The position numbers were made by a program, and so were the translations under genes. A stretch of DNA of 64,000 bases from contig CALSRU010000001.1 in NCBI GenBank assembly GCA_943788835.1, positions 190,229 through 254,228 on the forward strand, read 5' to 3'. The DNA comes from an uncultured Pseudomonadales bacterium. GTDB lineage: Bacteria; Pseudomonadota; Gammaproteobacteria; Pseudomonadales; UBA7434. Numbering within the stretch: position 1 is the stretch's first letter; the number at the start of each line of letters is the position of its first letter. The notes under the pieces were generated by a model. That model saw only the letters and a program-made list of their open reading frames with translations. It had not been told where the DNA came from and searched no databases. Of this stretch, positions 29,078-45,228 are shown in pieces.

Positions 29078-29085
29078 TTAAAGAA

Positions 29086-30126
29086 ATGCCCGAGTCGCCG
29101 GTACTGCATTATCCGTTTAAAAAAAATTGGCACCCAGAACCTGGAGAGCCTTTTGAAGTTGTGTCGGGTGTTTATTGGCTGCGCATGCCACTTCCGATCA
29201 AGCTTGATCATATCAATCTTTGGCTTTTAAAAGACGGCTCAGGCTGGACGATTGTTGACACAGGTTATTATGATGAAACCTGCAAAGCGATTTGGGAGGG
29301 GGTTTTTACACACTTTGTTTTACCAGAAAAAGTAACGCGTATTATTGTTACCCACTTTCATCCCGATCATATGGGCCTGGCCAGCTGGTTGGCTGAAAAG
29401 TGTGATTGCAGAGTGGTAATCAGCAAACCAGAGTATGATTTATACTATTTAATTAGAACGCGCGACAAAGCTGCTTTTCGCCAGCGAGCTGCAGCATTTA
29501 TGGTGGAGTCGGGAGCGGATGAAGAACTTCAAAGGTTATACGCGAATGCATTGAGTGATACATCTCAAGCCAAAACTTTGCCACGATCCGTATGCGAGTT
29601 TGTCGATGAGCCCGATGCTTTATTGATCGATGGTCGACACTGGCAGTTTATAAGCGGCAACGGTCATTCGCCGCTTCACCTATGCCTATATTGTAAAGAG
29701 CTTAAGGTAATGATTGCGGGTGATCAGGCGCTCCCTCGTATTACATCCATTGTTAGTGTTTCCGTTGAAAATGCGGACCAAAATCCCTTGCTTGACTGGC
29801 TAGATTCGTGTCGTAAGTTACAGGCGGTCATTCCTGATTCAACCTTAGTGCTGCCTTCACATCAGGAGCCCTTTACCGGCATACATTTGCGCATGCAGCA
29901 ATTGATAGAAAGCCATGAAAAGCAACTTCGGAAGTTATTGAAATCTTTGCCACAGAAAAACACTGCAACCGAAATTAGTTTTGCGCTGTTTGCACGCAAG
30001 TTGGACTCATTTGGTCGTTTGATGGCGATCGGCGAAACTCTGGCACATATTAACTACCTCATCGAGCAGCGCTCAGTCGATAAAAAAATAAACTCGGAAG
30101 GTGTTGCGCGATATCACCTCAATTAG
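29086..30126 (+). CDS. Metallo-beta-lactamase-fold hydrolase
   Basis: A 346-residue MBL-fold protein with the dinuclear metal motif THFHPDHMG (His90, His92, Asp94, His95), INLWLLKDGSGWTIVDTG before it, GHSPLHLCLY (His near 196) and IAGDQALPRI with the bridging Asp. The C-terminal 80 residues, with LMAIGETLAHINYLIEQ, resemble the helical tail of MBL-fold hydrolases acting on thioesters or lactones. The substrate is not determined. It begins eight bases after the FHA gene, so it joins the protease-FHA operon. Confidence 0.85.
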   Translation: MPESPVLHYPFKKNWHPEPGEPFEVVSGVYWLRMPLPIKLDHINLWLLKDGSGWTIVDTGYYDETCKAIWEGVFTHFVLPEKVTRIIVTHFHPDHMGLASWLAEKCDCRVVISKPEYDLYYLIRTRDKAAFRQRAAAFMVESGADEELQRLYANALSDTSQAKTLPRSVCEFVDEPDALLIDGRHWQFISGNGHSPLHLCLYCKELKVMIAGDQALPRITSIVSVSVENADQNPLLDWLDSCRKLQAVIPDSTLVLPSHQEPFTGIHLRMQQLIESHEKQLRKLLKSLPQKNTATEISFALFARKLDSFGRLMAIGETLAHINYLIEQRSVDKKINSEGVARYHLN

Positions 30127-30211
30127 GGATGGGTTTAGCGTAAGTTAAAATACTGTAATTCTGCTCGTTATGTTGACCGGTATACTCCCGCTTTTTATAT
30201 AAGGAAAAGTT

Positions 30212-30991
30212 ATGGATCCGCTTCTCGATTTTACCGACAAAAATATTCTAATAACCGGAGCCGGTAGCGGTTTTGGTGCGGCATTATCTTGTGCCTTAGC
30301 TGCGCGTGGCGCTAGGCTCATATTGGCGGATATCAATGTTGCGGGTTTGGATGAAACTGTTGCTAAGATTAAACCCTCTGGCACCGAGGTCGCCATGTTG
30401 GTTGGTAACGTGGCAGACGAGTTGCATGCTAAAGCGTTGGTTGAGCTTGCCCAAAGCGAATTTGGCCGCTTAGATTTTGCAGTCAACAATGCCGGCGTGG
30501 CGCCGAATATGGCCCCCATAGACCAGACTCTATCTGAAGTGTTAGACCTTCAACTCAACGTAAACGTTAAAGGCGTGGCGTTTGGGATGAAGTATCAGTT
30601 ACCAGCGATTACAAAAGCCGGCGGTGGCGCTATATTGAACGTCAGTTCAATGGCGGGTATTGGTGGTGCGCCCATGGCGTCGAGCTATGCCGCGGCTAAA
30701 CACGCAGTGATTGGCCTGACTAAAACGGGCGCCTGTGAATTTGGTGGCAGGAATGTTCGCGTTAATGCCATATGCCCATTTTTCTCTCAAACGCCTATGG
30801 TGCTTGAGTCGGATGTTATTAAAAGCGGCACTCTAGAAGAGGCTAATAGTAAGCTGGCTCAGGGGTGCCCAATGAAGCGGATTGCTGAGCTTGATGAAAT
30901 TGTTAATGTGATGGTGATGATGTTATCGCCACAGAATACCTATATGAATGGTGTTGCCATTGCAGTCGACGGTGGCATGTCGGCTATGTAG
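30212..30991 (+). CDS. Short-chain dehydrogenase/reductase
   Basis: A 259-residue classical SDR. TGAGSGFGAALSCALA is the nucleotide-binding motif near the N-terminus, NNAGVAP is the NNAG strand, and SSMAGIGGAPMASSYAAAKHAVI carries the catalytic Ser, Tyr and Lys in Y-x3-K spacing. VDGGMS at the end is also typical. The alcohol/ketone substrate is unknown. It follows the MBL-fold gene by 85 bp, with a good purine-rich site before ATG. It is convergent with the DsbA-like gene. Confidence 0.88.
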   Translation: MDPLLDFTDKNILITGAGSGFGAALSCALAARGARLILADINVAGLDETVAKIKPSGTEVAMLVGNVADELHAKALVELAQSEFGRLDFAVNNAGVAPNMAPIDQTLSEVLDLQLNVNVKGVAFGMKYQLPAITKAGGGAILNVSSMAGIGGAPMASSYAAAKHAVIGLTKTGACEFGGRNVRVNAICPFFSQTPMVLESDVIKSGTLEEANSKLAQGCPMKRIAELDEIVNVMVMMLSPQNTYMNGVAIAVDGGMSAM

Positions 30992-31059
30992 TCATTTTTA
31001 GCGTCAAGCGCAGGCTTAAACAAAGTGGCGGGGTCGCTACGTTACTCTTAATTAAGCTA

Positions 31060-31779
31060 TCACTGGTTAATATTCTCTAGCTCTAGAGCAATAAGTTTGT
31101 CGGCAATGTTAGTAATATCTTGGTGTGACTTAGCTGTAGTGTTCAACACTAAATAGCGACCATTTACCATGAGTGTTGGTGTGCTAGTGGCTCCCGAACG
31201 CTTCATAGTTAATTTGGCATTTTTTAGTTGCTCATTTAAATCATCATCGTTAAGTTGCTCTTGAAAGGCCTCAGCGGAGAGCCCATGCTTGACAAACAGT
31301 TGTTCAAGTTCCGTTTGATGTTTTTGCATGCTCGGCTCGGAGCGCAAAGCTGTAATCGTTTTAAATAAACTCGCGTGGACCGCTTCTTTTTCCTGCATGG
31401 ACTGCGCAATAAAAAATGCTTTAGCGTGCAGATCCATCAACTTTGCCCATACGGCGGGCACTTGCTCGAGTGACACCTCTGCCGGCAGATTTTTTTGCCA
31501 TCGGTGCAAGGTAGGTTCAAAAGACTCGCAGTGTGGGCAGCCATACCAAAAAAACTCTTTAACAGTGACAATACCTTTCTCCTCCGGCCACGGATCATCG
31601 AGGATAGCGTAGTGCGTGCCTTCGACTAGGCCAGTGGTGAGGTTAATTGATTTTGCTAGTTCTGCTTTCCCAGATTTTCCTTGCCCGCAACCAGCGAGCA
31701 TTACGAGTAGTATCAGGCTGAAAATAAAATGGGTGGACTGGCTTTGGCCGTAACTAGTATAAGTATCAGATTGGGTCAT
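31060..31779 (-). CDS. DsbA-like thiol:disulfide interchange lipoprotein
   Basis: A 239-residue periplasmic thioredoxin-fold oxidase. The N-terminus has an unusually long 16-residue lead, then a hydrophobic helix ending LAGC (Cys31), a lipobox that predicts membrane anchoring. The active site is CPHC (Cys81-Cys84) in FFWYGCPHCESF, identical to E. coli DsbA; the cis-Pro is in SGATSTPTLMV near 200. The interrupting helical domain lies between. Substrate proteins might include the secreted cysteine-containing protease encoded nearby, but that is only proximity. Confidence 0.9.
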   Translation of the reverse strand: MTQSDTYTSYGQSQSTHFIFSLILLVMLAGCGQGKSGKAELAKSINLTTGLVEGTHYAILDDPWPEEKGIVTVKEFFWYGCPHCESFEPTLHRWQKNLPAEVSLEQVPAVWAKLMDLHAKAFFIAQSMQEKEAVHASLFKTITALRSEPSMQKHQTELEQLFVKHGLSAEAFQEQLNDDDLNEQLKNAKLTMKRSGATSTPTLMVNGRYLVLNTTAKSHQDITNIADKLIALELENINQ

Positions 31780-32309
31780 TATAATTTAGAGTCCAGACAA
31801 TCAACGATTTGGTCAGTGGTTTGGTCAGTGTACCGTAACTAATAGTGAGTAGAAAAGCGCTTCTTGCCCGATAAGCCGCCAATTATGGTCGGCTATTATC
31901 GTTAACAATATGTCGAATATTAGCGAAATTCATCGTCATTTTATTTCGCGGTAGAACACAAAGCTATTTTGCGAGAGCATAGTCCATGCATGCCAATGCG
32001 CGTCTTTGTGTCAGCGGATTCGTTGTAGATAGTTAACTGAGTAAAGTTAGCGCTAATTTCTTGAATTAGGGCGTCAAAATCATCCATTACCACCTATTAA
32101 CACTATACTAATTAGATCGGGTTTGATGTGGCGTTGGCAGTCTCTGATGGCTATTTTTTCGGGTACTTTTATTTATGGCATTTGTATTTAAGATCATTCG
32201 ATCATACTTTATGACGAAGGCAAGTTATGGTCTTTTTGAGCAACATATCGCTGCATTGGCTTAGTCGCCTCCATTTGTGTTTCGTAGTTAGCTAAGTGAG
32301 ATAGCGACA
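31780..32309. other. 530-bp region upstream of the amidotransferase cluster
   Basis: The longest gene-poor stretch before the biosynthetic cluster. TTTGGTCAGTG occurs twice in tandem, about 31809-31831. TTGTAT (32182-32187) and TACTTT (32205-32210), spaced 17 bp, are a weak promoter candidate. A 22-codon ORF with its own ribosome site lies at 32227-32295 just before asnB (separate entry). No tRNA or larger gene is seen. Confidence 0.5.
32227..32295 (+). CDS. Possible 22-residue leader peptide
   Basis: ATG at 32227, preceded by GAAGG with a six-base spacer, opens a 22-codon frame ending TAA at 32295, 14 bp before the amidotransferase start. The peptide (MVFLSNISLHWLS plus RLHLCFVVS) is mildly hydrophobic. 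Position and ribosome site suggest a leader peptide or a translational coupler, but no run of a single regulatory amino acid and no attenuator hairpin is evident. It may be chance. Confidence 0.3.
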   Translation: MVFLSNISLHWLSRLHLCFVVS

Positions 32310-34226
32310 ATGTGTGGTTTTGCAGGAATTTTCGATCGTGCTGTTCATGGTGGTGTTTCGCCCCCTGCGGAATTACTCCGTGATATGGGGCAGAATATCC
32401 GCCATCGAGGCCCGGATGATGAGGGCATTTATTCGGCGCAAGGTTTTGGGTGCGTCCACCGTCGCCTGAGTATTATTGATTTGGCGACAGGGCAGCAGCC
32501 CATGTTAAGCCAAGACGCTAACTTGGTACTGGTCTTCAACGGCGAGATTTTTAATTTTGTTGAGCTGCGTGAGCAGCTTGTTACCCAAGGACACCAGTTC
32601 ACTACGAACTCAGACACCGAAGTTATCCTACACCTCTATCAACGTCACGGTCTCGATTTTGTCAGCCACCTCAATGGACAATTTGCTATCGCTTTGTGGG
32701 ATAAGCGTATAGAGCAGTTGCTTTTAATTCGTGATCGCGTTGGAATTTGTCCGCTCTTTTATACAGTCGATCAGGGCAAGCTCGTTTTTGGTAGCGAAGT
32801 TAAAGCGCTTAAGCCGGCGCTATCGAACGGGCTATCACTTTCTGCAGAAGCTCTCGATCAGATTTTTACTTTTTGGGCGCCTGTTTCACCCAATACCATT
32901 TTTAAAAATGTTTTTGAGGTGCCTCCAGGGCATATGATGGTTGTCGATCGCAGTACAATCAAAAGCATTCAGTATTGGGAGTGGAGCTATGATGAAGATT
33001 ATAGCCAAGCAAGCGAAGAGCAATCGATCGGTGAATTGCATGACTTGCTGATAGACGCAACCAAAATAAGGCTGCGTTCGGATGTGCCGGTTGGCGCCTA
33101 CCTGTCGGGCGGTCTAGATTCTTCATCGATCGCTGCATTGATTAACCAATATGGCGATGTGCCGTTACGAACGTTTTCACTGAATTTTGATCAAGGCAAT
33201 TTTGACGAGGCAAGCTTTCAGCAAACGTTAGTTAAAAAGCTATGCACAGAGCACTCAAATATAATGGTTGGAGCCGATGATATAGCCCGGGCGTTCAAAA
33301 ACACCATTTATCACACTGAGTCCCCCATTTTAAGAACTGCGCCTGTCCCCATGGGGCTTTTATCGGGTTTAGTTAAAGATAATAACTTTAAGGTAGTACT
33401 GACAGGTGAGGGCGCTGACGAGGTTTTTGGAGGTTATGACATATTTAAAGAGGCAAAAGTTCGGCGTTTTTGGTCGCGTAATCCGAATTCCCAGTGGCGA
33501 CCCTTATTGCTCAAAAGACTCTATCCATATTTAAATTTACCAAGTGGGAATCATAATGTATATCTTAAATCCTTCTTCGGGCAGGCGCTCGATAGTCCTG
33601 ACTCGGTATGTTTTTCTCATATTCCAAGATGGACAACCACGGCCAAAGCTAAAACTTTTTTTTCAGATGATTTGAATTCTCATTTGCGCAACAAGGCCAT
33701 GGACGTTTTGATGGAATCATTGCCGAGCAAAATCTCTAGCTATAATGCGTTTAATCGTGCCCAGTACATAGAAAGTAAAACGCTTATGTCCGGCTATTTG
33801 CTTAATAGCCAGGGTGATCGTATGTTGATGAAGAATTCGGTGGAAGGCCGCTTCCCGTTTCTAGATCACAGACTTATAGAGTTTGCTAGCAAGCTACACC
33901 CAAAAACAAAAATGAAAGGGATGAACGAAAAATACGTACTAAAAAAAGCAATGAGCAGGTATGTGCCTGATGAGATTATTCAGCGCTCGAAGCAGCCATA
34001 CAGAGCCCCAGACGTAAACACCGGATTGAATACTTTGGCTGGCGAAGAGTTTCAATATTATTTGTCTGATTCAATGCTGGGGCAGTCAGGGTTCTTTTCA
34101 CCAGGAAAAGTGGCAATGTTGCAAAAGAAAGCTGAAAAAGGCAAGCCGTTATCGACCTCGGAATCGCAGGCGTTAACTGGAATATTGAGCACTCAGATCG
34201 TATACGAAAGTTTTGTTAAAAATTGA
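32310..34226 (+). CDS. Asparagine synthetase-like amidotransferase
   Basis: A 638-residue class II glutamine amidotransferase. The Ntn glutaminase domain starts MCGFAGIF (catalytic Cys2 after Met removal) with RHRGPDDEG and FNGEIFNF. The C-terminal ATP-pyrophosphatase domain has SGGLDSS at 266-272 and TGEGADEVFGGY. It should amidate a carboxylate using glutamine and ATP. The length and the next two genes (acyl carrier protein, AMP-forming ligase) resemble the amidotransferase sets of exosortase-linked polysaccharide loci, but no exosortase or glycosyltransferase is here. I read it as a biosynthetic amidase of the cluster, not housekeeping asnB. Substrate unknown; it leads a five-gene plus-strand arm. 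Confidence 0.9.
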   Translation: MCGFAGIFDRAVHGGVSPPAELLRDMGQNIRHRGPDDEGIYSAQGFGCVHRRLSIIDLATGQQPMLSQDANLVLVFNGEIFNFVELREQLVTQGHQFTTNSDTEVILHLYQRHGLDFVSHLNGQFAIALWDKRIEQLLLIRDRVGICPLFYTVDQGKLVFGSEVKALKPALSNGLSLSAEALDQIFTFWAPVSPNTIFKNVFEVPPGHMMVVDRSTIKSIQYWEWSYDEDYSQASEEQSIGELHDLLIDATKIRLRSDVPVGAYLSGGLDSSSIAALINQYGDVPLRTFSLNFDQGNFDEASFQQTLVKKLCTEHSNIMVGADDIARAFKNTIYHTESPILRTAPVPMGLLSGLVKDNNFKVVLTGEGADEVFGGYDIFKEAKVRRFWSRNPNSQWRPLLLKRLYPYLNLPSGNHNVYLKSFFGQALDSPDSVCFSHIPRWTTTAKAKTFFSDDLNSHLRNKAMDVLMESLPSKISSYNAFNRAQYIESKTLMSGYLLNSQGDRMLMKNSVEGRFPFLDHRLIEFASKLHPKTKMKGMNEKYVLKKAMSRYVPDEIIQRSKQPYRAPDVNTGLNTLAGEEFQYYLSDSMLGQSGFFSPGKVAMLQKKAEKGKPLSTSESQALTGILSTQIVYESFVKN

Positions 34227-34247
34227 TATGTTAAAAGGTTTTAGATA

Positions 34248-34496
34248 ATGGACGAAAAAAAAATAGCGTTGCGTAAATTTGTTTTAGAAAACTATCTGTT
34301 TACCGAGGATGAAGGTGCATTGAAAGATGATGATTCATTTTTAGATAATGGAATCCTCGATTCAATGGGAGTTCTAGAGCTGATTTCATTTTTAGAGGAG
34401 GAGCTATCAACTTCGGTTGAGGGTGATGAGGTGACGCCCGACAATCTTGATTCAATTAATAAGGTACTGGCTTTTATTGAAACTAGATCCCATTAA
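34248..34496 (+). CDS. Acyl carrier protein (ligase-associated)
   Basis: An 82-residue ACP/PCP. The phosphopantetheine site is GILDSMGVLEL with Ser39; FLDNG precedes it and acidic helices follow, so the four-helix fold is complete. It should carry an acyl or amino acid group as a pantetheine thioester. Its position 21 bp after the amidotransferase and 61 bp before the AMP-forming ligase suggests that the ligase loads it and the amidotransferase or methyltransferase acts on the loaded group. A separate ACP occurs in the opposite arm (40656-40919), so the cluster has two carriers. Confidence 0.93.
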   Translation: MDEKKIALRKFVLENYLFTEDEGALKDDDSFLDNGILDSMGVLELISFLEEELSTSVEGDEVTPDNLDSINKVLAFIETRSH

Positions 34497-34557
34497 TTGT
34501 TTCATGCTAATGAATTAGAACGCTATAGGCGCAAAAATTTTATTTTAGGAGGTCTAA

Positions 34558-36108
34558 ATGAAGAGTGGGCGATTGTTACAAGATGATTTAACTCTTGCCT
34601 ATAGAGCGCATCCGGAAAAAATAGTAGCAATAGTAGAGGGTAAAGAGTTCAGCTATGCAGACTTATTCAAAGAAAGTCAAAATATAGCCAAGCACCTTTT
34701 TGATCGAGGCTTCCAAAGAGGCGATCGGGGTGCAATCTTTATTGAAAATTCTTGGAATGTGCTGACATCGATATATGGCGTTCTTTATGCCGGCGGCGTG
34801 TTCTTAATTATCAATCATTTAACTAAGCAGGATAAGCTAGCTTATATTTTGCAAGATAGCGAGGCCTCTTTTTTATTGTCAGATACAATGGTGTCCAGGC
34901 ACTTTATTCCGGCTGTAGAGCAAAATTCCTGTTTAAGAGAGATCATTTATGCTGGCGATCTTATCGAGCCGTTTGGATCAATACCGCTCACTCGTTTCGA
35001 CGACCTTCATTTTGGCGCAAGTTCTGAAGATGCATCATTGTTTAGTGATTCAATCAATCTTGATTTAGCGGCCCTGATTTATACGTCCGGCAGCACGGGA
35101 GATCCTAAGGGTGTGATGATGACGCACCAAAGTATGGTGTTCACCAGCGATAGTTTGGTTGAATATCTACGCCTGGATGCCGAATCTCGCATCATGTGCT
35201 TTTTACCTTTCGCTTTTGATTATAGTTTATATCAAATTTTGATGACTGTTCGACTTGGGGCCAGCATTGTTATTGGTAAGTCGTTTGCTTTTCCAAGCCA
35301 AATTTTTGAGCAGCTACGCAAATCTGGCGCAACCGTTTTTCCTGGGGTGCCAACGGTTTATTCAACTTTAATTAACATGTATGAAAAAACGCCATTTACC
35401 TTGCCGACGGTGACTCGATTATCGAACACAGCGGCCGCACTTCCAGCTAAATACATAGCTATGCTCAAGAAAATATTTCCCAATGCGCTGATCTTTACCA
35501 TGTATGGCTTAACTGAATGTAAGCGAGTGTGTTATTTAGAGCCCGAGTTGATTGATACGCACGCAACATCGGTCGGCAAGGCTATTCCTGGCACAGAAGT
35601 TATGGTGCTGGATCAAGACATGAATCCTGTTGCCGCAAATCAAGAGGGCACTTTGTACGTTCGCGGCGCCCATGTGATGAGAGGCTATTGGAAAAAGCCT
35701 GAGCAAACAAAACAAATGTTGGTTGCTAATATATTTCCGGGTGAATTCATACTTTGTGCTCAAGATCGATTTGTGATGGATGGCGATGGTTTTTTGTATT
35801 TCAAGGGCCGTTCAGACGATATTATTAAAGCGCGGGGAGAGAAGGTGAGTCCAGTTGAGGTGGAGAATGCGCTCTACAGTATATCGGGTGTGCGGGAGGC
35901 AGCAGTGATTGGGGTGCCTGATCCATTTGAGGGTGAATATGTTAAGGCTTTCGTCTCTTTGGAGCCTGGCTCTGATTTAAGTTCACGCCAGCTGCGTCAG
36001 CGCTGTATTGCCGTACTAGAAAATTTTATGGTTCCAAAAGAGGTAGTGATTATGGATGAGTTACCTAAAACAGATTCTAATAAAGTGACTAAAAGAGACC
36101 TGTCTTAG
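34558..36108 (+). CDS. AMP-forming acyl/amino acid ligase
   Basis: A 516-residue ANL-superfamily adenylation enzyme. Core A3 is YTSGSTGDPKG (175-185), FPGVPTVYS and MYGLTECKRVCYLEP (A5) follow, then A7-A8 DRFVMDGDGFLYFKGRSDDIIKARGEKVSPVEVE, and Lys509 in KTDSNKV (A10). It activates a carboxylate to an acyl-adenylate and then loads a carrier. The size without a condensation domain fits a stand-alone loader. TECKR in place of the more usual TE-(C/A)-T, and the ligase's pairing with an ACP, resemble ligases of exosortase-associated loci. Strong Shine-Dalgarno AGGAGG directly before ATG. Stop abuts the next ATG. Confidence 0.92.
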   Translation: MKSGRLLQDDLTLAYRAHPEKIVAIVEGKEFSYADLFKESQNIAKHLFDRGFQRGDRGAIFIENSWNVLTSIYGVLYAGGVFLIINHLTKQDKLAYILQDSEASFLLSDTMVSRHFIPAVEQNSCLREIIYAGDLIEPFGSIPLTRFDDLHFGASSEDASLFSDSINLDLAALIYTSGSTGDPKGVMMTHQSMVFTSDSLVEYLRLDAESRIMCFLPFAFDYSLYQILMTVRLGASIVIGKSFAFPSQIFEQLRKSGATVFPGVPTVYSTLINMYEKTPFTLPTVTRLSNTAAALPAKYIAMLKKIFPNALIFTMYGLTECKRVCYLEPELIDTHATSVGKAIPGTEVMVLDQDMNPVAANQEGTLYVRGAHVMRGYWKKPEQTKQMLVANIFPGEFILCAQDRFVMDGDGFLYFKGRSDDIIKARGEKVSPVEVENALYSISGVREAAVIGVPDPFEGEYVKAFVSLEPGSDLSSRQLRQRCIAVLENFMVPKEVVIMDELPKTDSNKVTKRDLS

Positions 36109-37020
36109 ATGCGTGAAGCCGATCGTAGTTTGTTTCAGAAACTCCAAGCAGAGCTTGAGACCCGATTACCGCTCTTGCCGGACAAGCCCGAAGAAACTTC
36201 CAGTAACTGTATGAGAGCCCTTTGGTTGTATGCCGCTGGCCGTCCTGTGTCGGCGACTGCAGCAAGTGAATTACCGCTAGAAGATCTCTCCCAAGCGCAG
36301 CAAAATGCTTTAGTTAGTGCGGTCGAGCAAAGAATTTCTGGAGTCCCGTTGGCACATATTACGGGGCGCCAGACATTTATGGGTATTGAATTGCTCGCAA
36401 GCAGCTCGGCTCTGATCCCTCGCCAAGAAACTGAAATTCTTGCGTCTTTGGCATTGAAATCGATCGATCAGGTTGCGAGTGATGTACCAAGGCCTTGTGT
36501 TATTGATGTATGCACAGGCTCCGGAAATCTGGCACTAGCGGTTTTGACTCGCCGGCCTAATATAGATATCTGGGGAGCGGACTTGTCTCGAGAGGCCGTT
36601 TCATTGGCAAAAAAAAATGCGCTGCACTTAGGTTTGCAGAGCGATATTAGTTTTTTAAGTGGCGATCTGTTGGCGCCTTTTGATCGCGGGGAGTTCCATG
36701 GCTCGGTAGATATAATTATCTGTAATCCACCTTATATCCTTAGCTCAAATGTTCAAAAGATGGCGCCAGAAATCGCCCAATATGAGCCTGATCTGGCTTT
36801 CAACGGAGGCCCTTTTGGCATAAAAATTCTCGATAGAATTATTAAAGAGTCGGCTCAATATCTCAAACACGGAGCCTGGCTTTGTCTTGAACTAGGTGCT
36901 GGGCAGGGGCCATTTGTCGAAAAAAGAATTATAAAAAGTGGCTTCTATGAAAATATTGATTTAGCTTGCGATGCAGCTGGCGCTATTAGGGCTTTAAGGG
37001 CACAACGGGTTTTGGAGTAA
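36109..37020 (+). CDS. HemK/PrmC-like N5-glutamine methyltransferase paralogue
   Basis: A 303-residue SAM-dependent methyltransferase. It has the full PrmC layout: a helical N-domain, PLAHITGRQTFMGIELL and SALIPRQETEI (compare the PLQYI-G-x-x-F and LIPRPETE signatures), SAM motif I VIDVCTGSGNLA (131-142) and the amide-binding NPPY (206-209). PrmC methylates the glutamine amide in release factors. Here the gene starts immediately after the ligase stop, so it belongs to the cluster, not to prfA. I infer that it N-methylates an amide, possibly the one made by the amidotransferase. A plain duplicate of PrmC is the alternative. Confidence 0.88.
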   Translation: MREADRSLFQKLQAELETRLPLLPDKPEETSSNCMRALWLYAAGRPVSATAASELPLEDLSQAQQNALVSAVEQRISGVPLAHITGRQTFMGIELLASSSALIPRQETEILASLALKSIDQVASDVPRPCVIDVCTGSGNLALAVLTRRPNIDIWGADLSREAVSLAKKNALHLGLQSDISFLSGDLLAPFDRGEFHGSVDIIICNPPYILSSNVQKMAPEIAQYEPDLAFNGGPFGIKILDRIIKESAQYLKHGAWLCLELGAGQGPFVEKRIIKSGFYENIDLACDAAGAIRALRAQRVLE

Positions 37021-37058
37021 TAAGTCATCGTATTGGGAAAAAAATAAATGAGGACGTT

Positions 37059-38036
37059 ATGAAAGAAAAAGCTCTGGCTGTTTTAGATGTTGATTATTCT
37101 GCAGTTGTGACTAGTACGAGTAATAAAATTCGCGAATTGTTACGTTCTACTTTGCGTCGACGCGGTTTACTGGTCGCAATTTCAGGCGGTATTGATAGTT
37201 CAGTATCGGCGGCATTGGCAGTGAACGCTATTGGTAAGAATAAGGTATTTGGTTTGCTGCTTCCGGAGACCGATTCGGCTAGCTCAAGTCTAAGTAACGG
37301 CGAGTTATTGGCGCAACATTTGGGCATTGAATATTTGAATATGGATATTGCCCCAACCCTTGATGCGATTGGTTGTTATCAGTGGCGCGATGATGCAATC
37401 CGAACCCTGTTCCCAGATTACACTTCCGCCTGGAAAAGTAAGATAGCCATTCGCGGCGGGACTGCCGGCCAAATTAATAGCTTTACCCTTATCGTAGAGG
37501 ATCCAGCGGGCAGCCGCTATGAAAAGGCCATGCCTCTGCATGCCTATCGCACTATTGTGGCGGCAACTAGCTATAAACAGCGGATTCGTAAAACGGTTGA
37601 ATATTTCCATGCTGATCGCCTCAACTATGCTGTGGTTGGCACGCCTAACCGATTGGAATATGACCAAGGTTTTTTTGTGAAAAATGGTGATGGTTCTGCG
37701 GATTTGAAGCCTATTGCTCATCTATACAAAAGCCAGGTTTATGGTCTTGCTAGACACTTCGAACTGCCGGATATTATTTGTAACGCGATTCCGAGCACCG
37801 ATACTTACAGCTTAGAGCAAGGACAGGACGAGTTTTATTTTGCTCTACCTTACCAGCAAATGGATTTGGCTTTATGGTGTTACAACAACAGCAAAAGCCC
37901 GAGTGTTCTCGCTAGTTATCTCGATATAGACCTTATAAAGGCTGAGTTTATTTATAGGGATATTGAAAATAAACGAAGAGCGACTCGCTATCTGCATCTA
38001 CGCCCACAGCTAATGGAGAGTGTTGATTTTGGCTGA
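37059..38036 (+). CDS. NAD synthetase-like ATP-dependent amide ligase
   Basis: A 325-residue N-type ATP-pyrophosphatase of the NadE family. The P-loop SGGIDSS is at 42-48; ISGGIDSSVSAALAV, KNGDGSADLKPIAHLYKSQVYGLARHF near residues 205-235 and the substrate loop GTPNRLEYDQGF near 191-202 match NAD synthetase. There is no N-terminal nitrilase domain, so it uses ammonia. Compared with NadE the region around 140-170 (NSFTLIVEDPAGSRYEKAM) is unusual for the family. Position 38 bp after the methyltransferase, as the last gene of the arm, suggests a biosynthetic amidation. A housekeeping NadE is possible if no other exists in the genome. Confidence 0.85.
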   Translation: MKEKALAVLDVDYSAVVTSTSNKIRELLRSTLRRRGLLVAISGGIDSSVSAALAVNAIGKNKVFGLLLPETDSASSSLSNGELLAQHLGIEYLNMDIAPTLDAIGCYQWRDDAIRTLFPDYTSAWKSKIAIRGGTAGQINSFTLIVEDPAGSRYEKAMPLHAYRTIVAATSYKQRIRKTVEYFHADRLNYAVVGTPNRLEYDQGFFVKNGDGSADLKPIAHLYKSQVYGLARHFELPDIICNAIPSTDTYSLEQGQDEFYFALPYQQMDLALWCYNNSKSPSVLASYLDIDLIKAEFIYRDIENKRRATRYLHLRPQLMESVDFG

Positions 38037-38114
38037 TAAAGGGAGCTTATGACTGAGTCTGAGCTAGAGATCGGAGCGTGCATCAGCTAATTCTTTAATG
38101 CCGATTAGTTTAGG

Positions 38115-39239
38115 TTAAATTCCTTCGGCATCAGAGTCGCTTGTACTCTGATACCATAAGTCCGGCAAGTAGATGGGATCGTCCGGCTTGGCATCCTTAT
38201 AATAGACAAATAGTTCTGAGTCTGTTTCTCGCACTATGAAGCCTGTATGTTTTGCAGCTTCAATAGAGGCATTATCATTTAACGTTATGAGTATTTGCTC
38301 GGCACCGAGGCGCTGAGAACACTTAGCAGCATGCAAGTAAAGCGCACTTAAATTTTTAGAGATGGACTCCGGAGAAAAAATATCCGAGTCGACGATCCGC
38401 CCAATTTTAATCGTGTCTATGGTGCTTAAGTGGTAAATTACGTAGCCTATTAATTGGTTTTTCTTGAATGCGCCTACAATCCTAACATTGGCTCGAGGAT
38501 TTTTTTTATAGCGCCAGCTTAAATATTCGGCTGATCGATGCACTTTAATCTCACCTAGAAGTCCTGTTGCCTCGGGTAAAAAACGGGTTAGTTCGTCAAT
38601 AGATTCAATGTCACAAACTGTCACATCTGCGGTTGGTGCGATTTGACGCCACTTGAAGTGATGGTGACATGTCAGCAGCGGATTGATTATTAGCGCAATA
38701 ACCTTTGCTATTGGTGCGATAGCTTTTTTCTTTAGATAGCCATTTGAGCGCAGCATCAGCTTATAATATTGCCGCGCAGGCATGCTGTGAAAGAGCTTCC
38801 GCAGCATGCTTTTTGAATTATCGTTACCGCCGCATACCAAAATGCAGGTATGACGCTCTTGCAGCACTAGCGCCATCCACGCTCCCAACCCGCGGTTGTC
38901 AAACTCCGGATCGACCATGACATCCATACCTCGGATTGCCGGTTCACGTTTACCGCAGTTTATTATTTCGACAGGTTCAATGCCCATCGCAGCAATAATG
39001 GCACCCTTATATTCAAGGATCCAAAGCGTGGAGGGTAAGTCGCTGCTGCGAAAATAGCGCCACTTAAGATATTCTTTATCGTCATTGTGAATACCAGAAC
39101 CAAATACCTGACGACGCATATTACTTATAGCCGTGATATCTGTCGCTGAGGCTGCGCGAAAACTCTGTATCAATTCTTCGTGGCTTAGCTTAAACGATTT
39201 AGCCAGTACTTTAGATAGGCGTTGAAATTGGCTAGACAT
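38115..39239 (-). CDS. GNAT-superfamily acyltransferase, two-domain
   Basis: A 374-residue protein. The N-terminal half has a GNAT-like domain with EYKGAIIAAMGIEP and MDVMVDPEFDNRGLGAWMAL (the R/Q-x-x-G-x-A/L acyl-CoA loop, near residues 106-125). A second GNAT-like part is visible from about residue 225 (HRSAEYLSWRYKKNP, QLIGYVIYHL). No membrane segment or signal peptide. It could transfer an acyl group from the ACP or CoA made by the neighbouring KASIII module onto an amine. It is the last gene of the minus-strand arm, 143 bp from the SDR gene and 78 bp from the convergent NadE-like gene. Confidence 0.8.
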   Translation of the reverse strand: MSSQFQRLSKVLAKSFKLSHEELIQSFRAASATDITAISNMRRQVFGSGIHNDDKEYLKWRYFRSSDLPSTLWILEYKGAIIAAMGIEPVEIINCGKREPAIRGMDVMVDPEFDNRGLGAWMALVLQERHTCILVCGGNDNSKSMLRKLFHSMPARQYYKLMLRSNGYLKKKAIAPIAKVIALIINPLLTCHHHFKWRQIAPTADVTVCDIESIDELTRFLPEATGLLGEIKVHRSAEYLSWRYKKNPRANVRIVGAFKKNQLIGYVIYHLSTIDTIKIGRIVDSDIFSPESISKNLSALYLHAAKCSQRLGAEQILITLNDNASIEAAKHTGFIVRETDSELFVYYKDAKPDDPIYLPDLWYQSTSDSDAEGI

Positions 39240-39382
39240 AAAGTCCGAAACTCATGATTGATACTCAATAGTTCTGTGATCTAACGGTTATTCTCTGTTT
39301 TTTGTTGGGCTTTGTTTTAATTGGCGCTTAGATTAAAGGCTTGCAAGCCGCCAATGCCTATATTTGATCTACACGCGACCCC

Positions 39383-40144
39383 TCACCCTGAAATTCTTTC
39401 GCCGTGATCAACCACAATAACTTGGCCATTAATTGCGCTGGACGCATCAGCGCAAAGAAATAGGGCTGCTGCGGACACCTCCTCTAAGGAGGTCAGTCGA
39501 CCGCCTGGAATTTTATCGAGTACTATTTGTAGGCGTTCGTCTTTGTCTGGAAAGGCATTCCAAGCATCGGTGAGTACACTTCCAGGCGAGAGGACGTTAA
39601 TTCGCACATTGGAGTCACTCAGTTCGATAGCAAGGTGTCGGCAGAGCGATTCGAGTGCGCCTTTTGACGCGCCTACTAAAGAGTAATTGGGTATACCTTT
39701 ACCGGCGCCCTCAGAAGAGAGGGCGATTACGCTAGCCCCTTGCGCCAGCTTACTTTTACTTCGCGCCATCAGATCAAAAAAAGCGCGTACATTGAGATTC
39801 ATTGTCCAGTCCCAGTGCTTTAACTGTAATTGATCAAAAGGGGCATGAATACCCGTAGCAGCACAATGAATAATGCCGTCTAATTCTTTTCCATCAAGGA
39901 TTTTATCCATCGCAGCAAACAATTTGTCCATCCCTTTTTCTCGGGACAAATCTGCCCGAATAATACTGACCCGCTGATCACTTAACTCTGCTTGAGCTGC
40001 GGCCGCACTTTTCTGATCACGTGCATAGTTTGCAATAACTGTGGCGCCGTTGTTGGCCAATGCTCTTGTGATGGCCAGTCCTATGCCACGTGTACCGCCG
40101 GTTACTAGGATCGTTTTATCGGAAACAGAAAATAGTTGATTCAT
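39383..40144 (-). CDS. FabL-like enoyl-ACP reductase (SDR family)
   Basis: A 253-residue SDR. TGGTRGIG is the NADP motif. From memory of Bacillus subtilis FabL, several stretches are close: LKHWDWTMNLN, PNYSLVGASKGALESLCRHLAIELS and VLTDAWNAFPDKDE. The active-site pair is Tyr154 and Lys161, that is Y-x6-K, as in FabI/FabL enoyl reductases, not the Y-x3-K of ketoreductases. It should reduce a trans-2-enoyl-ACP with NAD(P)H. ATG at 40144 overlaps the upstream dehydratase stop (ATGA), so the two are translationally coupled. The alternative is a ketoreductase of unusual motif. Confidence 0.85.
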   Translation of the reverse strand: MNQLFSVSDKTILVTGGTRGIGLAITRALANNGATVIANYARDQKSAAAAQAELSDQRVSIIRADLSREKGMDKLFAAMDKILDGKELDGIIHCAATGIHAPFDQLQLKHWDWTMNLNVRAFFDLMARSKSKLAQGASVIALSSEGAGKGIPNYSLVGASKGALESLCRHLAIELSDSNVRINVLSPGSVLTDAWNAFPDKDERLQIVLDKIPGGRLTSLEEVSAAALFLCADASSAINGQVIVVDHGERISG

Positions 40145-40599
40145 GAACAATCCCTAGCCTTTTTTTGATTCCAATAGGTCGCTAAAACGGGGTCTAGTTC
40201 TGGTAGCCCTAGTTTCCTGTTGGCCTCGAAAGAAAATAATAGTTCAGTGCTGGCAACTAACGTTCCAGCGCGTTCGGTGCTAGCTTTTATGCGCGCAAGC
40301 CTGGGTTGTGATGAGATAATTTCGGCGTTTATGTCCAATAGCTCGCCGGGTCGAACCCATTCGCGAAAAGCAGCATTTTTTATTTGTATTAGCATTGCCG
40401 AGCGGTTTTCGTCTGTTCGGCTAGCAAGGCATAAGCCCGCGGCTTGCCCCATCATTTCGGTGAGCAAAACGCCAGGTACGACAGGAAATTCAGGGAAATG
40501 GTCTTCGAATAGTTCAAGATCTTCTGGCCATGTTCTCTGGCACCGGATAGTGAGTCCAGGTTCGAGGGCTATGATAGTGTCAACAAATCGGTATCTCAT
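40141..40599 (-). CDS. FabZ/FabA-like 3-hydroxyacyl-ACP dehydratase
   Basis: A 152-residue hotdog dehydratase. EDHFPEFPVVPGVLLTEMMGQAA is the FabZ active-site signature: His34 and Glu48 are the catalytic pair. Residues further on (RPGELLDINAEI) match the second conserved region. It should dehydrate 3-hydroxyacyl-ACP to enoyl-ACP, the step before the neighbouring enoyl reductase, whose start codon overlaps its stop. It lies 56 bp downstream of the acyl carrier protein gene. Confidence 0.88.
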   Translation of the reverse strand: MRYRFVDTIIALEPGLTIRCQRTWPEDLELFEDHFPEFPVVPGVLLTEMMGQAAGLCLASRTDENRSAMLIQIKNAAFREWVRPGELLDINAEIISSQPRLARIKASTERAGTLVASTELLFSFEANRKLGLPELDPVLATYWNQKKARDCS

Positions 40600-40655
40600 A
40601 ATTGAGCCTAAAAAAGGTCGGGACGAGCCTCATTTATTGAATGAAGACGCTTGCT

Positions 40656-40919
40656 TTAACCGACTTCATCCAAAAGCACGCCTGCATCTTTAAGTAGCTT
40701 TAATATATCAGCAACCGTAGAAAATGAACCGATGGTCTCTTCTTCAAGGAGGAGACTAAAGCGCTCGTCTAGCTCGGCCATCAACAATAAAACCCCCATG
40801 GAGTCCCATCCTTCAAGGTCGTCGAGGCTAGCCGCCGGCTGTACTTCATCCTCGGGCGTGTTGATTGCTTCTGCGATCATGGAAAGTGCTTGTGATGTGG
40901 AAAGTGCATTGTCAGACAT
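40656..40919 (-). CDS. Acyl carrier protein (KAS-associated)
   Basis: An 87-residue ACP. The phosphopantetheine attachment is LEGWDSMGVLLLMAEL (Ser of DSMG near residue 40), with the usual flanking helices and an acidic surface. It should be the carrier on which the KASIII, dehydratase and enoyl reductase of this arm work. It differs from the carrier at 34248: here GWDSMG, there ILDSMG. It lies 85 bp downstream of the KASIII gene. Confidence 0.93.
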   Translation of the reverse strand: MSDNALSTSQALSMIAEAINTPEDEVQPAASLDDLEGWDSMGVLLLMAELDERFSLLLEEETIGSFSTVADILKLLKDAGVLLDEVG

Positions 40920-41004
40920 ATTCTTTCTCGATAGCCAGAGGGCTTCAAATGACTAATAACTAATTTATCAAATATAGTTTGCAAATATTTTGGTTAAGCC
41001 TGGT

Positions 41005-42033
41005 CTATCGCATCATGTATTCAGAATGTAAAAATACTGTATCTGGATGGATCTTTAACAGCGCTGAACCCCAAGAGCGACCGACGCCATAGCCGAGCAA
41101 CATAGCCGTTTCTGCTAACGTTAATTTTTTATCAATATAATGTTGACCGAGCGTCATCGGTACTGACGGCCCCCCGGCATTACCATATTCTCCAAGTATC
41201 ATAGGCGTTTTTTCGGGCGGTAAGCCACTTTTTTTAGCAATGTGACGCATCATAAATTGGTTCGATTGGTGAAATATAAACACGTTAATATCATCAATGC
41301 ACTTATCCATGAGGTCGAGAGTATCTTGGATCAATGGCGGGACTTTCTGAATGGTGAAGTTGAATAAATTGGCTCCATTCATGTGTAGGTAGTTGTCACG
41401 CTTATCGGCAGGGCTGGGCTCGCGAAAACCACGCCCAGGAATAATTAAATCTTGGTAACCCTGGCCGTCCGAATGCAGGGAAAACCCCCATGAATCATCA
41501 CCGTCTTGTTCAATGGCACTGGCTGATCCCGCATCGCCAAAAAGTAGTGCTGTAGCTCGATCTTGGGGGTGGGTAATAAGCGAGGGTGTTTCACCATGCA
41601 TGACTAAAACGCGCTTGGCACCGCCGGTTTGAATCATCATTGAAGCGAGCCATAATCCATAAGGGTAGCCTGAGCAGCCTAGCCCTACGTCAAAAGCCGC
41701 GCAAGACATAGGTAGCTCAAGGTCACGATGAAGCAAGGATGAGGTGCTAGGTAGAAAATAATCAGGGGTTTGGGTTACAAAGATTAGCGCGTCAATACTG
41801 TCTGGCGACCATTCAAGAGAGTCCAGCAGTTGTTTTCCGGCCTGCAGGCACAAATCACTAGAGCAGGTTTTATCGTCTACAACACGCCGCTGCTTGATGC
41901 CTGCTATGGTGACGACCTTCTTGACTTCTTGAGGGTCGAAATTATCTGAATCTTTGACATTGTTAAAGACTCGGTCCGGAACACAGGTGGAAACTCCTTT
42001 AAGTCTAGATCCTTTTAATATGGCTGTCGTCAT
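41005..42033 (-). CDS. 3-oxoacyl-ACP synthase III (KASIII/FabH-like)
   Basis: A 342-residue thiolase-fold condensing enzyme. The Cys-His-Asn triad is complete: Cys120 in GLGCSGYPYGL, His255 in IFHQSNQF and Asn285 in EYGNAGGP. KASIII enzymes start fatty acid or polyketide chains from an acyl-CoA or acyl-ACP and malonyl-ACP. The short length and FVTQTPDYFLPSTS fit the biosynthetic FabH paralogues found in secondary metabolite and lipid modification clusters. It leads the minus-strand arm with the ACP, dehydratase, enoyl reductase and GNAT-like genes. A ketoreductase step is not encoded here and could be shared with fabG. Confidence 0.92.
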   Translation of the reverse strand: MTTAILKGSRLKGVSTCVPDRVFNNVKDSDNFDPQEVKKVVTIAGIKQRRVVDDKTCSSDLCLQAGKQLLDSLEWSPDSIDALIFVTQTPDYFLPSTSSLLHRDLELPMSCAAFDVGLGCSGYPYGLWLASMMIQTGGAKRVLVMHGETPSLITHPQDRATALLFGDAGSASAIEQDGDDSWGFSLHSDGQGYQDLIIPGRGFREPSPADKRDNYLHMNGANLFNFTIQKVPPLIQDTLDLMDKCIDDINVFIFHQSNQFMMRHIAKKSGLPPEKTPMILGEYGNAGGPSVPMTLGQHYIDKKLTLAETAMLLGYGVGRSWGSALLKIHPDTVFLHSEYMMR

Positions 42034-42225
42034 GCGAGTTCCTTAACGCGAGTAGCTTGGTTCTTGTTCGCGATAGGACGACCAAAATCGTCTAATTTTT
42101 TAGCGGACTGTCTTAGTGTAGACGCTTGTTGTCAATTTTGGCCACTCTTACCGAGGTTAAGTTTTATACTCCTTTCTTGAACAGCAGCAGTGCTGAGGTA
42201 TTAGATGAATAGCACTTTAAGAAGG

Positions 42226-43515
42226 TTATTTATCTTGACTGGGTCGTGCGCTATTTTGGCGCTGCAATGTCATGACTAATGCTTTAATTGGGCCAATAGC
42301 TACATTTGTCTGCCCCGTTTCACCGAGTAGATAGAGCTGGGCGTAATACCAGCATTGCACCGCGTAGTCTTCAAGTGTTCGCAAAGTATGGTTACGCCGT
42401 AAAAAAGCTAACCAATTCGGCAGCACGCCTAGTTGATTCTCATAATTTGGCAAAGCATCGCCGCCTGATAGCAAGTGTGCTGGGCCATCGGTGGCAACAC
42501 ATAGAGGGCGCGCCAGGCCAATGATGTCGGCAGCGCCAGCATCAAGGGCCTGCTCCATTGCTGCGCGATGCCTAAAGCCGCCCGTTACCATTAATGGGAT
42601 ATCCAGTTGTTCACGCATCGCCTTGGCAAAGTCAACAAAATAAGCTTCGCGAGCGAGTGTAGACGGTGCGACGTAGGACTGTTGTTCAGGCGTTTCTAGA
42701 CCCTGAGCACCGAGTAATTTGGGTTGTTCGTAGGTTCCGCCTGACACTTCAATTAAATCGACACTGGCATGTTGCAGCCAGTGAGCTACTTGTAAACTTT
42801 CGTCAAAACTGAAGCCGCCCCGCTGAAAATCAGCACTGTTTAGCTTGACACATATCGGGTAACTGGCCCCAACGCTGACACGTATTTTTTTTACAATCTG
42901 TAATAAAAAGCGAGCTCTATTTTTTAGCGAACCGCCGTAATCATCATCCCTATGATTTGAGCGAGGGCTCAAAAATTGTGATACCAAGTAGCCATGAGCG
43001 GCATGAATTTGAACGCCGGTGAAGCCGGCTTCTTTTACTGCAAGAGCAGCTGTAGCGAAACCGTTAATGAGATTTTCAATTTCATCAGCCTGCATGGCTA
43101 CTGGTTGGCCAAATTGACCTCCCGGCATATTTAAGGGTATGGCCGATGGCGCACGCGGATGCGGATTTACGTTCTTCATCGTCTGCCGACCGGCATGACT
43201 GATTTGCGCCCAAAACTGCGTGTTATTTTGGGTGGCTGCTTGCGCCCATTGCGCAAGCGCCTTTTGCATTGCCGCGGAAGGAGGCGCGTCGATAATCACG
43301 TTGCCGGGGCGCTCTAAATGGTCGCGGTCTATTTGTATGTTGCCGCTCAGTAGCAGCCCGGCACCGCCTTTAGCCCAAATGCTATACAGACGAATCAGCT
43401 CAGGTGTTGGCAAGCCGGTTGCCGTGGCCATGCCTTCGGTCATGGCAGCTTTTGCCAATCTATTTCTAATAGTGCTACCGCAGGGTAACAATATTGCGCT
43501 GTCTAGGGCGGGCAT
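42226..43515 (-). CDS. Old yellow enzyme-type NADH:flavin oxidoreductase
   Basis: A 429-residue FMN TIM-barrel oxidoreductase that reduces activated C=C bonds or related acceptors. RLAKAAMTEGMA is the N-terminal FMN segment, GVQIHAAHGYLVSQFLSPRSNHRDDDYGG the central signature with catalytic His pair, and GADIIGLARPL the C-terminal FMN loop. It lacks the extra 4Fe-4S domain of 2,4-dienoyl-CoA reductases. It lies upstream (by 192 bp) of the KASIII gene in the opposite-order sense, on the same strand, but a separate promoter region intervenes; membership in the cluster is uncertain. Confidence 0.9.
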   Translation of the reverse strand: MPALDSAILLPCGSTIRNRLAKAAMTEGMATATGLPTPELIRLYSIWAKGGAGLLLSGNIQIDRDHLERPGNVIIDAPPSAAMQKALAQWAQAATQNNTQFWAQISHAGRQTMKNVNPHPRAPSAIPLNMPGGQFGQPVAMQADEIENLINGFATAALAVKEAGFTGVQIHAAHGYLVSQFLSPRSNHRDDDYGGSLKNRARFLLQIVKKIRVSVGASYPICVKLNSADFQRGGFSFDESLQVAHWLQHASVDLIEVSGGTYEQPKLLGAQGLETPEQQSYVAPSTLAREAYFVDFAKAMREQLDIPLMVTGGFRHRAAMEQALDAGAADIIGLARPLCVATDGPAHLLSGGDALPNYENQLGVLPNWLAFLRRNHTLRTLEDYAVQCWYYAQLYLLGETGQTNVAIGPIKALVMTLQRQNSARPSQDK

Positions 43516-43530
43516 AGGAAGCCTTGCTGA

Positions 43531-43992
43531 CTAATTTTCTTGGTAGCTTTTTGCTAACGCCTCATAGCGCTGCCGATTCAAGCCGCGATCAGAATACCCT
43601 GCTCTGCTTGCTGAGCGAAAATGAACTTGTTGCGTTAGGGCGTCGATATAGAATTCCACATCGTCATGGTATTTCATCAGTGGAGTGGTAAATACCGCAT
43701 AAATATAATCTGATGTATGGGTAATTATTTCGGCACCGCCATATTGTTTTATTGCTGCCTTAATAGCATTGTGCGTCGCGTCGGCGCTTTCTTTCATCGC
43801 CAAAGGCGGCACTCTTTTTTGTTCATCGGTTGTTTGGCTAGCTACCGAGTTGGGCCGACTACCTAGCTCCATCAATTTTCCGTTGACTACGCCAAGCTCC
43901 GGAGCGCGGCTATTTTGAAAATAGATGGCGCTAAAAGCGACGGCAATGAGTATGAGGACGGCAAGCAATATTTTAGCCACGAGAGACTCCAA
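43531..43992 (-). CDS. DUF1499 family membrane-anchored protein
   Basis: A 153-residue protein with one N-terminal transmembrane helix (about residues 7-27) and a DUF1499 domain: GGAEIITHTSDYIYAVFTTPLMKYHDDVEFYID and VHFRSASRAGYSDRGLNRQRYE near the C-terminus. Function is unknown. It lies 15 bp upstream of the old yellow enzyme gene and is probably co-transcribed with it. Confidence 0.85.
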   Translation of the reverse strand: MESLVAKILLAVLILIAVAFSAIYFQNSRAPELGVVNGKLMELGSRPNSVASQTTDEQKRVPPLAMKESADATHNAIKAAIKQYGGAEIITHTSDYIYAVFTTPLMKYHDDVEFYIDALTQQVHFRSASRAGYSDRGLNRQRYEALAKSYQEN

Positions 43993-44254
43993 GTTTATAG
44001 CGGGTGAAAAGATCGGGGTGAGCTGCCTTAAACTGTCGGCACTTAAATAATTATTTCGTCTACCTCCGACATTCTAAACCTTGCGTTGGCTTTTTGCAGT
44101 ACAAAACTAAAGCATTTTAGGTATTCATGGTATTTGCTCAATATTGGCGGGTCTATCTTTATGACCTGCTGCGTTTCAACGGATGCGGCATATCCTGAGT
44201 GCTTAGCACTGTGTTAAATTAATGGCGCACTTATTTTTGCTAGAGGAGTCGTCG

Positions 44255-44866: not shown

Positions 44867-44896
44867 TGGGCAGCAGTAAAAAATTAATCGCGCTGA

Positions 44897-45172
44897 CTAA
44901 TCTGGTTTGCGCGGCACGTAACCTTCCGCTTGCTCGAACGCCTCTCCGGACAAGAATTTATTCATTTCGGCTTGTAAAAATGCTCGCGACTCTGCGTCGC
45001 GCATATTCAAATGTTTTTCGTTAATAAGCATAGTTTGGTGTTGCTGCCATTCTTCCCAGGCTTTTTTTGAGACCGTATCAAAAAGCTCTTGGCCTTTTGG
45101 CCCAGGGTAAGGAGGACGCTCAAGACCTTCTAAATTGGTTTGGTATTTGCGACAGAATATGATGCGTGTCAT
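44897..45172 (-). CDS. yggX: Oxidative damage protection protein YggX, Fe(2+) trafficking
   Basis: A 91-residue YggX protein, thought to handle cytosolic Fe(2+) and protect Fe-S clusters from superoxide. [31 protein letters not shown] at the start, with the conserved Cys7, and EGYVPRKP at the end are diagnostic. It lies 56 bp after mutY on the same strand, the classical mutY-yggX pair in gammaproteobacteria. Confidence 0.96.
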
Positions 45173-45228
45173 AGGTTTCTCATTGTGGTGGTTTACTGAT
45201 TGCTCATGGTGTGCAAATTTTCTGTGAG

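Follow-up and report, generated by a model that had tools for sequence, protein, structure and literature searches.

A convergent two-arm gene cluster of an uncultured Pseudomonadales bacterium that may encode a carrier-protein pathway to an amidated, aspartate-like group

The 64,000-nucleotide stretch of contig CALSRU010000001.1 analysed here (the window), from an uncultured Pseudomonadales bacterium, carries a ten-gene cluster at positions 32310–42033, arranged as two convergent arms (Table 1). Arm 1 encodes an AsnB-type amidotransferase, a carrier protein (ACP1; ACP, acyl carrier protein), an AMP-forming ligase, a HemK-like protein and a NadE-like protein; arm 2 encodes a KASIII, a second carrier protein (ACP2), FabZ-like and FabL-like proteins and a tandem GNAT. 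We propose, at somewhat under even odds (roughly 45%), that the cluster specifies a dedicated carrier-protein pathway, in which a carrier-bound, amidated and perhaps N-methylated aspartate-like group would be joined by the GNAT to a short acyl chain borne by ACP2. The cluster is more than a chance assembly, since four of its genes recur together in other genomes and its convergent layout is found again in Thiocapsa marina.

The AsnB, ACP, ligase and NadE genes of arm 1 form a recurrent, widespread cassette, shared by many environmental bacteria and not unique to the window. A profile of three NadE-like proteins, run against species genomes, found at least 556 relatives, the best 80 loci of which were kept; removal of L072 and addition of L021 and L024 gave a set of 81 loci, many of them short or ended by a contig edge, with genes taken as simple open reading frame (ORF) picks and antisense shadow ‘clusters’ in GC-rich loci ignored. 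AsnB, ACP1, ligase and NadE-like matches occur together in 62 of the 81; the AsnB match is missing in 17 of the other 19, several of which lie at contig ends. When the class was sampled evenly (369 genomes), a NadE-like match at E 1e-60 was present in 18 genomes, including that of the window (one match has an internal stop); the 17 other loci contain AsnB in 14 cases, ACP1 in 16, the ligase in 13 and all four genes in 12, with HemK-like and GNAT matches in two each. Among 12 genomes of the genus (G000–G011), the full set is confined to the genome of the window (G000); the congener G007 has an ACP1–ligase–NadE set, in nine others the sole match is weak and of the canonical NadE type, and the last has no match.

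The ligase looks like an amino-acid ligase of the VinN type rather than the plain-acid ligase that a preliminary description of the cluster had assumed. VinN, of the vicenistatin pathway, activates 3-methylaspartate as a β-amino acid, and its structure (3wvn) is the best solved relative of the window ligase (E 2.8e-65). The VinN literature names the residues D230, F231, S299, K330 and R331 and a shortened loop (PMC11253843). At the corresponding positions, counted along the alignment with an offset of 16, the window ligase has D, Y, T, K and R, and its β13–β14 loop aligns without a gap. Both enzymes are stand-alone ligases alike in β-amino-acid residues and loop length, and each has a separate carrier, which for VinN is VinL. 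The two systems differ in that a polyketide synthase and a decarboxylase are unseen in the window cluster, which has amidation and methylation genes instead.

Two main types of ligase, with a few others, are found in the cassettes: type A (TECKR, mostly FDYG) and type B (YYSYGNS, TEATAR). The HemK-like gene is present at 17 of the 27 loci with a type A ligase and at none of the 62 with other types (98 loci, nine of them without a counted ligase). A naive Fisher p of 1e-11 for this association was set aside because the tree holds too few independent pairs. At three loci (L041, L099 and L164) both types lie near one NadE-like gene; they may take different substrates within a single pathway. The ACP1–ligase–NadE set of G007 (L024:6808-9599) has a type B ligase, with no AsnB match on its 12-kb contig.

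The NadE-like protein retains the PP-loop (SGGIDSS) and scores above the cut-off of the NAD(+) synthase model, and its predicted structure (pLDDT 87) has the fold of an NH3-dependent NAD synthetase, with 2e18 as the best match (TM 0.67/0.84). Residues 104–173 (about 70), which in the predicted model partly form a small β-sheet, fall outside the alignments with the two best-matching solved NadE structures. The gene is neither the only NadE of its genome nor of canonical build. A canonical nadE is intact in G007 and is present elsewhere in G000 as two overlapping frames (L116:2682-3528, contig C8); an exosortase on the same contig (L114:2037-3622) looks, by eye, frame-shifted too, and both splits may be assembly errors or indels. 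In 51 of 57 relatives the only NadE matches are weaker ones of the usual types. The HemK-like protein exceeds the TIGR03534 cut-off and has the NPPY motif, although it is not the best-scoring PrmC of its genome: the three family members in G000 score 228.6 bits (contig C5), 208.5 bits (the cluster gene) and 186.7 bits (contig C4). The cluster gene is a paralogue beside a separate PrmC. AsnB reaches 509 bits against TIGR01536 (cut-off 267), with 1ct9 and 7ylz as nearest solved structures, and the D–S and G of the carrier motif are invariant in 12 of 12 aligned carrier rows.

The GNAT keeps company with both arms, and it is at this gene that they meet. A GNAT profile, built from the window protein with six relatives and then widened in one round, matches at 33 of the 81 loci, 6 of which are rows of the first profile and 27 lie outside these rows; in 19 of the 81 the GNAT directly follows NadE on the same strand. 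A single-sequence search of 398 genomes found only the window, the distant members coming with the profile. Matches at E 1.4e-150 or better are limited to six loci which also carry a KASIII (profile rows), the next best being 1.7e-27 (50 of 80 genomes). The predicted structure (pLDDT 90) matches the tandem-GNAT enzymes Eis and the N-myristoyltransferases (NMT); among the matches listed by VIA-align these give Z 19.2–21.1, with a root-mean-square deviation of 3.2–5.7 over 281–324 residues, Eis and NMT standing at nearly equal Z, which leaves room for other tandem GNATs. The N-terminal domain has an RGLGA-type loop; given this loop and the predicted tandem fold, acyl transfer to an amine is the likely reaction.

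The KASIII–ACP2 arm is an optional addition to the cassette. KASIII, ACP2 and GNAT stand beside it in 6 of the 81 loci (L033, L048, L049, L050, L070 and L104), with a GNAT adjoining in every one. The convergent layout of the window is repeated in Thiocapsa marina (L104), where an SDR separates ACP2 from KASIII and a FabZ-like match is lacking; in L049 both arms run in one direction. Gains or losses of the KASIII label amount to four changes on the best NadE tree, which was obtained with a brief search and has 39 weak branches among its 93 inner ones. The FabZ-like protein shows the His and Glu motifs of its type, and its gene is unmatched in all six other KASIII loci, where the FabL-like gene has one weak match (28%, in L104); both genes are almost private to the window.

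C120, H255 and N285 of the KASIII are invariant in the window protein and five relatives, whilst the W and R that belong to the CoA site of FabH are not conserved in them. The FabH of T. thermophilus (1ub7) reads EWIVTRTGI, with W and R ahead of the G–I motif, and both are replaced in the window KASIII; in E. coli FabH the corresponding roles belong to W32 and R36. When the 369 class genomes were searched with a KASIII profile, the single strong match was the protein of the window itself (1.4e-188), followed by three distant matches (7e-99 to 6e-86); the close GNAT, like the close KASIII, was found in the window's genome only. These KASIII and GNAT searches scored no more than about five initial candidates in each genome, so that misses are possible. 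The three distant relatives (L203, L204 and L205) have no ligase, AsnB or NadE match nearby. By eye, L203 is an amino-sugar locus and L204 an ACP–KASIII–SDR set. L205 (359-9446) is, also by eye, a NeuB-like (nonulosonic acid) locus with MaoC-like, radical-SAM-like and FkbH-like genes, two ACPs and a KASIII akin to that of arm 2, and is perhaps an acylated nonulosonic acid pathway. The occurrence of two of these distant relatives in amino-sugar and nonulosonic-acid loci places arm 2 near makers of acyl groups for surface sugars.

In the pathway that we propose, each step of which is read from protein family and residues, the ligase would adenylate an aspartate-like β-amino acid and load it on ACP1 as a thioester, leaving one carboxylate free, as its VinN-type residues suggest. 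Going by fold and motif, the glutamine-dependent AsnB and the NadE-like enzyme would amidate the free carboxylate(s) to an isoasparagine-like or diamide group, and the HemK-like protein, judged by its family and its co-occurrence with this ligase type, may N-methylate the new amide or an amine. The KASIII, acting on ACP2 and followed by the FabZ-like and FabL-like enzymes and probably a housekeeping ketoreductase, would make a short acyl group. The GNAT might then transfer this acyl group to the aminoacyl amine, or the aminoacyl group to an amino sugar. A bolder form of the proposal, which we consider doubtful, is that the cluster defines carrier-bound amide biosynthesis of a new class, in which β-aspartyl-S-ACP1 would be formed by a VinN-type ligase, amidated by AsnB and a repurposed NadE, and N-methylated at the amide by a repurposed PrmC, and either the tandem NMT-fold GNAT or the KASIII would join on the acyl chain of the second carrier, with a NadE-like gene (in 18 of 369 class genomes) hidden under the label ‘NAD synthase’. 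A precedent for the isoasparagine group is that of cystobactamid, which is made from asparagine on a non-ribosomal peptide synthetase by an aminomutase domain; it is a precedent for the group and not for the route of the window cluster. If the proposal is true, one protein group that an NCBI model would label NAD(+) synthase, with at least 556 relatives, and one PrmC-like group would need new names, and cassettes lying away from polysaccharide genes would offer a simpler system for finding the product.

Several observations weigh against the carrier-protein pathway as we have drawn it. Type B ligases (YYSYGNS...YGQTEATAR) serve the same cassette without the VinN residues, and are present in three of the six KASIII loci (L033, L048 and L050), so that Asp need not be involved in the core or in arm 2. 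In a tree test of the HemK–ligase link there are three supported pairs, an average of 1.8 of which agree and none disagree (p 0.5, not significant). KASIII and ACP2 are unseen in 75 of the 81 cassette loci (32 read over about 20 kb and 17 under 12 kb), and KASIII in all 17 cassette loci of the evenly drawn class sample. The reduction steps amount to window-specific guesses, since conservation of the FabZ-like and FabL-like genes does not extend to the other KASIII loci. Neither the cluster nor the ten neighbouring genes scanned include a recognisable transporter, resistance gene or regulator, and the split canonical nadE of G000 means that the NadE-like gene may serve NAD synthesis in this strain. 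The division of labour first suggested for the cluster, with an activating and amidating arm, possible N-methylation, a short-acyl arm and a joining GNAT, survives as a reading of the families, although arm 1 usually occurs without KASIII and ACP2. Independent occurrence of the arms had been named as what would speak against the two-arm idea: arm 1 does occur alone, in the 75 loci, whilst a close KASIII–ACP2–GNAT group was seen only beside arm 1, in a locus set seeded by NadE, from which solitary copies of arm 2 would be missing.

Among the known systems closest to the cluster are the XrtA/PEP-CTERM loci, in which AsnB, ACP and ligase genes are grouped together. The window AsnB and ligase match both XrtA models, and the FD and the R of the same loop were found in six of six XrtA ligases read that score over the cut-off, as in the window ligase. 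The scores are nevertheless well under both cut-offs (444 bits against 817 for TIGR03108 and 373 against 592 for TIGR03098), the loop reads TECKRV in the window and TEAFRS in XrtA ligases, and the window adds NadE-like, HemK-like, KASIII and GNAT genes to a locus without an exosortase. The preliminary description had called exosortase absent and the system unrecognised. The absence holds at the cluster, on contig C1, whereas the genome has two exosortases, on contigs C8 and C5; and although no title listed in searches of the open-licence literature for such a cassette, its XrtA context or its predicted product describes the cassette, the window's AsnB and ligase are sub-threshold relatives of XrtA proteins and some cassettes lie in XrtA loci. 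Nor did that literature yield a described role for the AsnB–ACP–ligase trio of XrtA loci, which would become testable were our proposal true, the ligase residues predicting a concrete substrate class. In the 2006 exosortase paper (PMC1569441) the terms acyl carrier, ligase, amidotransferase and asparagine are all absent. L025 is an example of a cassette inside an XrtA polysaccharide locus, with a chain-length determinant and a deacetylase over their cut-offs and a tyrosine kinase, an ATPase and an outer-membrane protein under theirs. In L021 (9827-11706; genome G031, same order) the cassette is followed by two α/β-hydrolase-like genes that resemble XrtA-associated hydrolases 1 and 2.

These relationships bear on a possible, if somewhat doubtful, alternative, in which the cluster decorates a surface glycan or exosortase linker, the GNAT placing an amino-acid amide or uronamide on a sugar and the glycosyltransferases lying elsewhere in the genome. 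Of the 81 cassette loci, 20 carry one or more of seven XrtA-polysaccharide gene clusters (among the scanned representatives of the six other than cluster 16, those of two, the chain-length determinant and the deacetylase, passed their NCBIfam cut-offs and those of four did not), XrtA models rank first among the matches of the ligase and second among those of AsnB, and one of the two exosortases of G000 adjoins, by eye, glycosyltransferase-like genes. The other 61 loci have none of the seven, 28 of these being read over about 20 kb, even if inspection by eye shows single glycosyltransferase- or deacetylase-like ORFs in a number of them (L045 and L054, for example); seven exosortase stretches in six genomes (G000 twice, G007, G031, G002, G008 and G005), some of them contig-cut, hold no match to a cluster gene. 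The window cluster has no recognisable glycosyltransferase, and no sugar aminotransferase, NeuB-like or glycosyltransferase gene was found among its ten genes and the ten neighbours scanned (26811–46275; one neighbour without a match). The linking sugar of Porphyromonas gingivalis is the nearest described logic that we found: an AsnB homologue (WbpS) and a GNAT-like protein (VimA) are tied to an amino-acid-bearing uronamide, and its authors suggest the same logic for exosortase loci (PMC7468200). AsnB-type amidation and GNAT-type amino-acid transfer are the shared elements, whereas Wbp sugar genes were not recognised in the window cluster, where the amino acid would come from the carrier protein and ligase. 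In Rubrivivax, mutation of an AsnB-like gene in a PEP-CTERM polysaccharide locus is reported to have altered aggregation (PMC3684757), which also favours a role at the surface.

Release of the product as a free small molecule, an N-acyl amino-acid amide serving as signal or compatible solute, is unlikely in our view. The cassettes without nearby XrtA genes, the predicted tandem-GNAT N-acyltransferase fold and the second ACP adjoining the GNAT would suit it, and AsnB has a sub-threshold match of 343 bits (cut-off 570) to TIGR03104, the amidotransferase model of the N-acetylglutaminylglutamine amide (NAGGN) osmolyte pathway; position in XrtA loci in some genomes argues instead for use at the surface. 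FeeM and FeeL, an N-acyl amino acid synthase and its ACP, offer a parallel. Here too an N-acyltransferase adjoins a dedicated ACP, and the pair is linked to PEP-CTERM loci (PMC7293339). The window GNAT differs in being a tandem-domain protein of the Eis/NMT type, with no match to an FeeM-type NCBIfam model at E 1e-3 and only one weak match, to an unrelated model. Less probable again is a single two-carrier assembly line, in which the KASIII would condense an aminoacyl starter on ACP1 with a malonyl extender on ACP2. The two dedicated carriers, and the replaced W and R of the KASIII and its relatives, which hint at a non-CoA starter, fit such a scheme; the same residues are, by eye, likewise lacking in the KASIII of L203–L205, away from any ligase, AsnB or NadE match, and the GNAT would be left without an acyl donor of its own. 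That the cluster is mere housekeeping, with a second NAD synthase, a PrmC copy and a generic fatty-acid side cluster, we regard as very improbable: both NF002048 and TIGR03534 are exceeded and the canonical nadE of G000 is split, yet the four-gene linkage is conserved, the genome has a separate PrmC and a further family member, nearly all relatives hold only the weaker, usual NadE types noted above, and the split may be an assembly error, as the exosortase on the same contig looks frame-shifted as well.

Table 1. Genes and intergenic gap of the two-arm cluster (window positions; bit scores with model cut-offs)
Feature	Position	Strand	Features and matches
AsnB-type glutamine amidotransferase, 638 aa	32310–34226	+	Cys2 glutaminase start, SGGLDSS loop
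ACP1, carrier protein with D-S phosphopantetheine site	34248–34496	+	PF00550 21.1 bits (cut-off 20.8)
Putative AMP-forming ligase, VinN-type residues (FDYS, SNTAAA, YGLTECKRV)	34558–36108	+	Top match TIGR03098
HemK/PrmC-like putative N-methyltransferase paralogue, NPPY motif	36109–37020	+	TIGR03534 208 bits (208.5; cut-off 199)
NadE-like, putative amide-forming ligase (PRK00876 type)	37059–38036	+	NF002048 448 bits (cut-off 313)
Gap between convergent arms, 78 bp	38037–38114		Intergenic
Putative tandem-GNAT N-acyltransferase, Eis / N-myristoyltransferase fold	38115–39239	-	Predicted fold
FabL-like enoyl-reductase-type SDR, Y-x6-K	39383–40150	-	207 bits (cut-off 328); 3oic FabL, E 3.1e-44
FabZ-like dehydratase (EDHFPEFPVVPG, LLTEMMGQ)	40141–40599	-	FabZ models 75 bits, under cut-offs
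ACP2, second carrier protein	40656–40919	-	Pfam/NCBIfam matches, carrier alignment
KASIII (FabH-like)	41005–42033	-	C-H-N residues

All ten ORFs lie where the preliminary description had put them, with the families, order, strands and convergent 78-bp spacing it gave; the family names agree with Pfam and NCBIfam matches, several of which fall under the curated cut-offs of specific models. The FabL-like gene probably starts at an ATG at 40144, overlapping the FabZ-like gene. The long control regions described on both sides are borne out on the left, where 530 bp separate the cluster from a dsbA-like gene, but not on the right, where 192 bp lead to an old-yellow-enzyme-like (OYE-like) gene (42226–43515) on the same strand as arm 2. 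This putative ene reductase, upstream of KASIII, is unmatched in the six other KASIII loci. No terminator-like site was found within the gap between the arms, and scans of the window with Rfam and for tRNA gave no matches. Terminator-like sites in the window number 13, near the 10.9 expected by chance, and promoter-like sites 11, fewer than in shuffles (18.5). Elsewhere in the window, at 26811–30991, a run of plus-strand genes encodes an HtrA-like protease, an FHA-domain protein, a metallo-β-lactamase-fold enzyme and an SDR.

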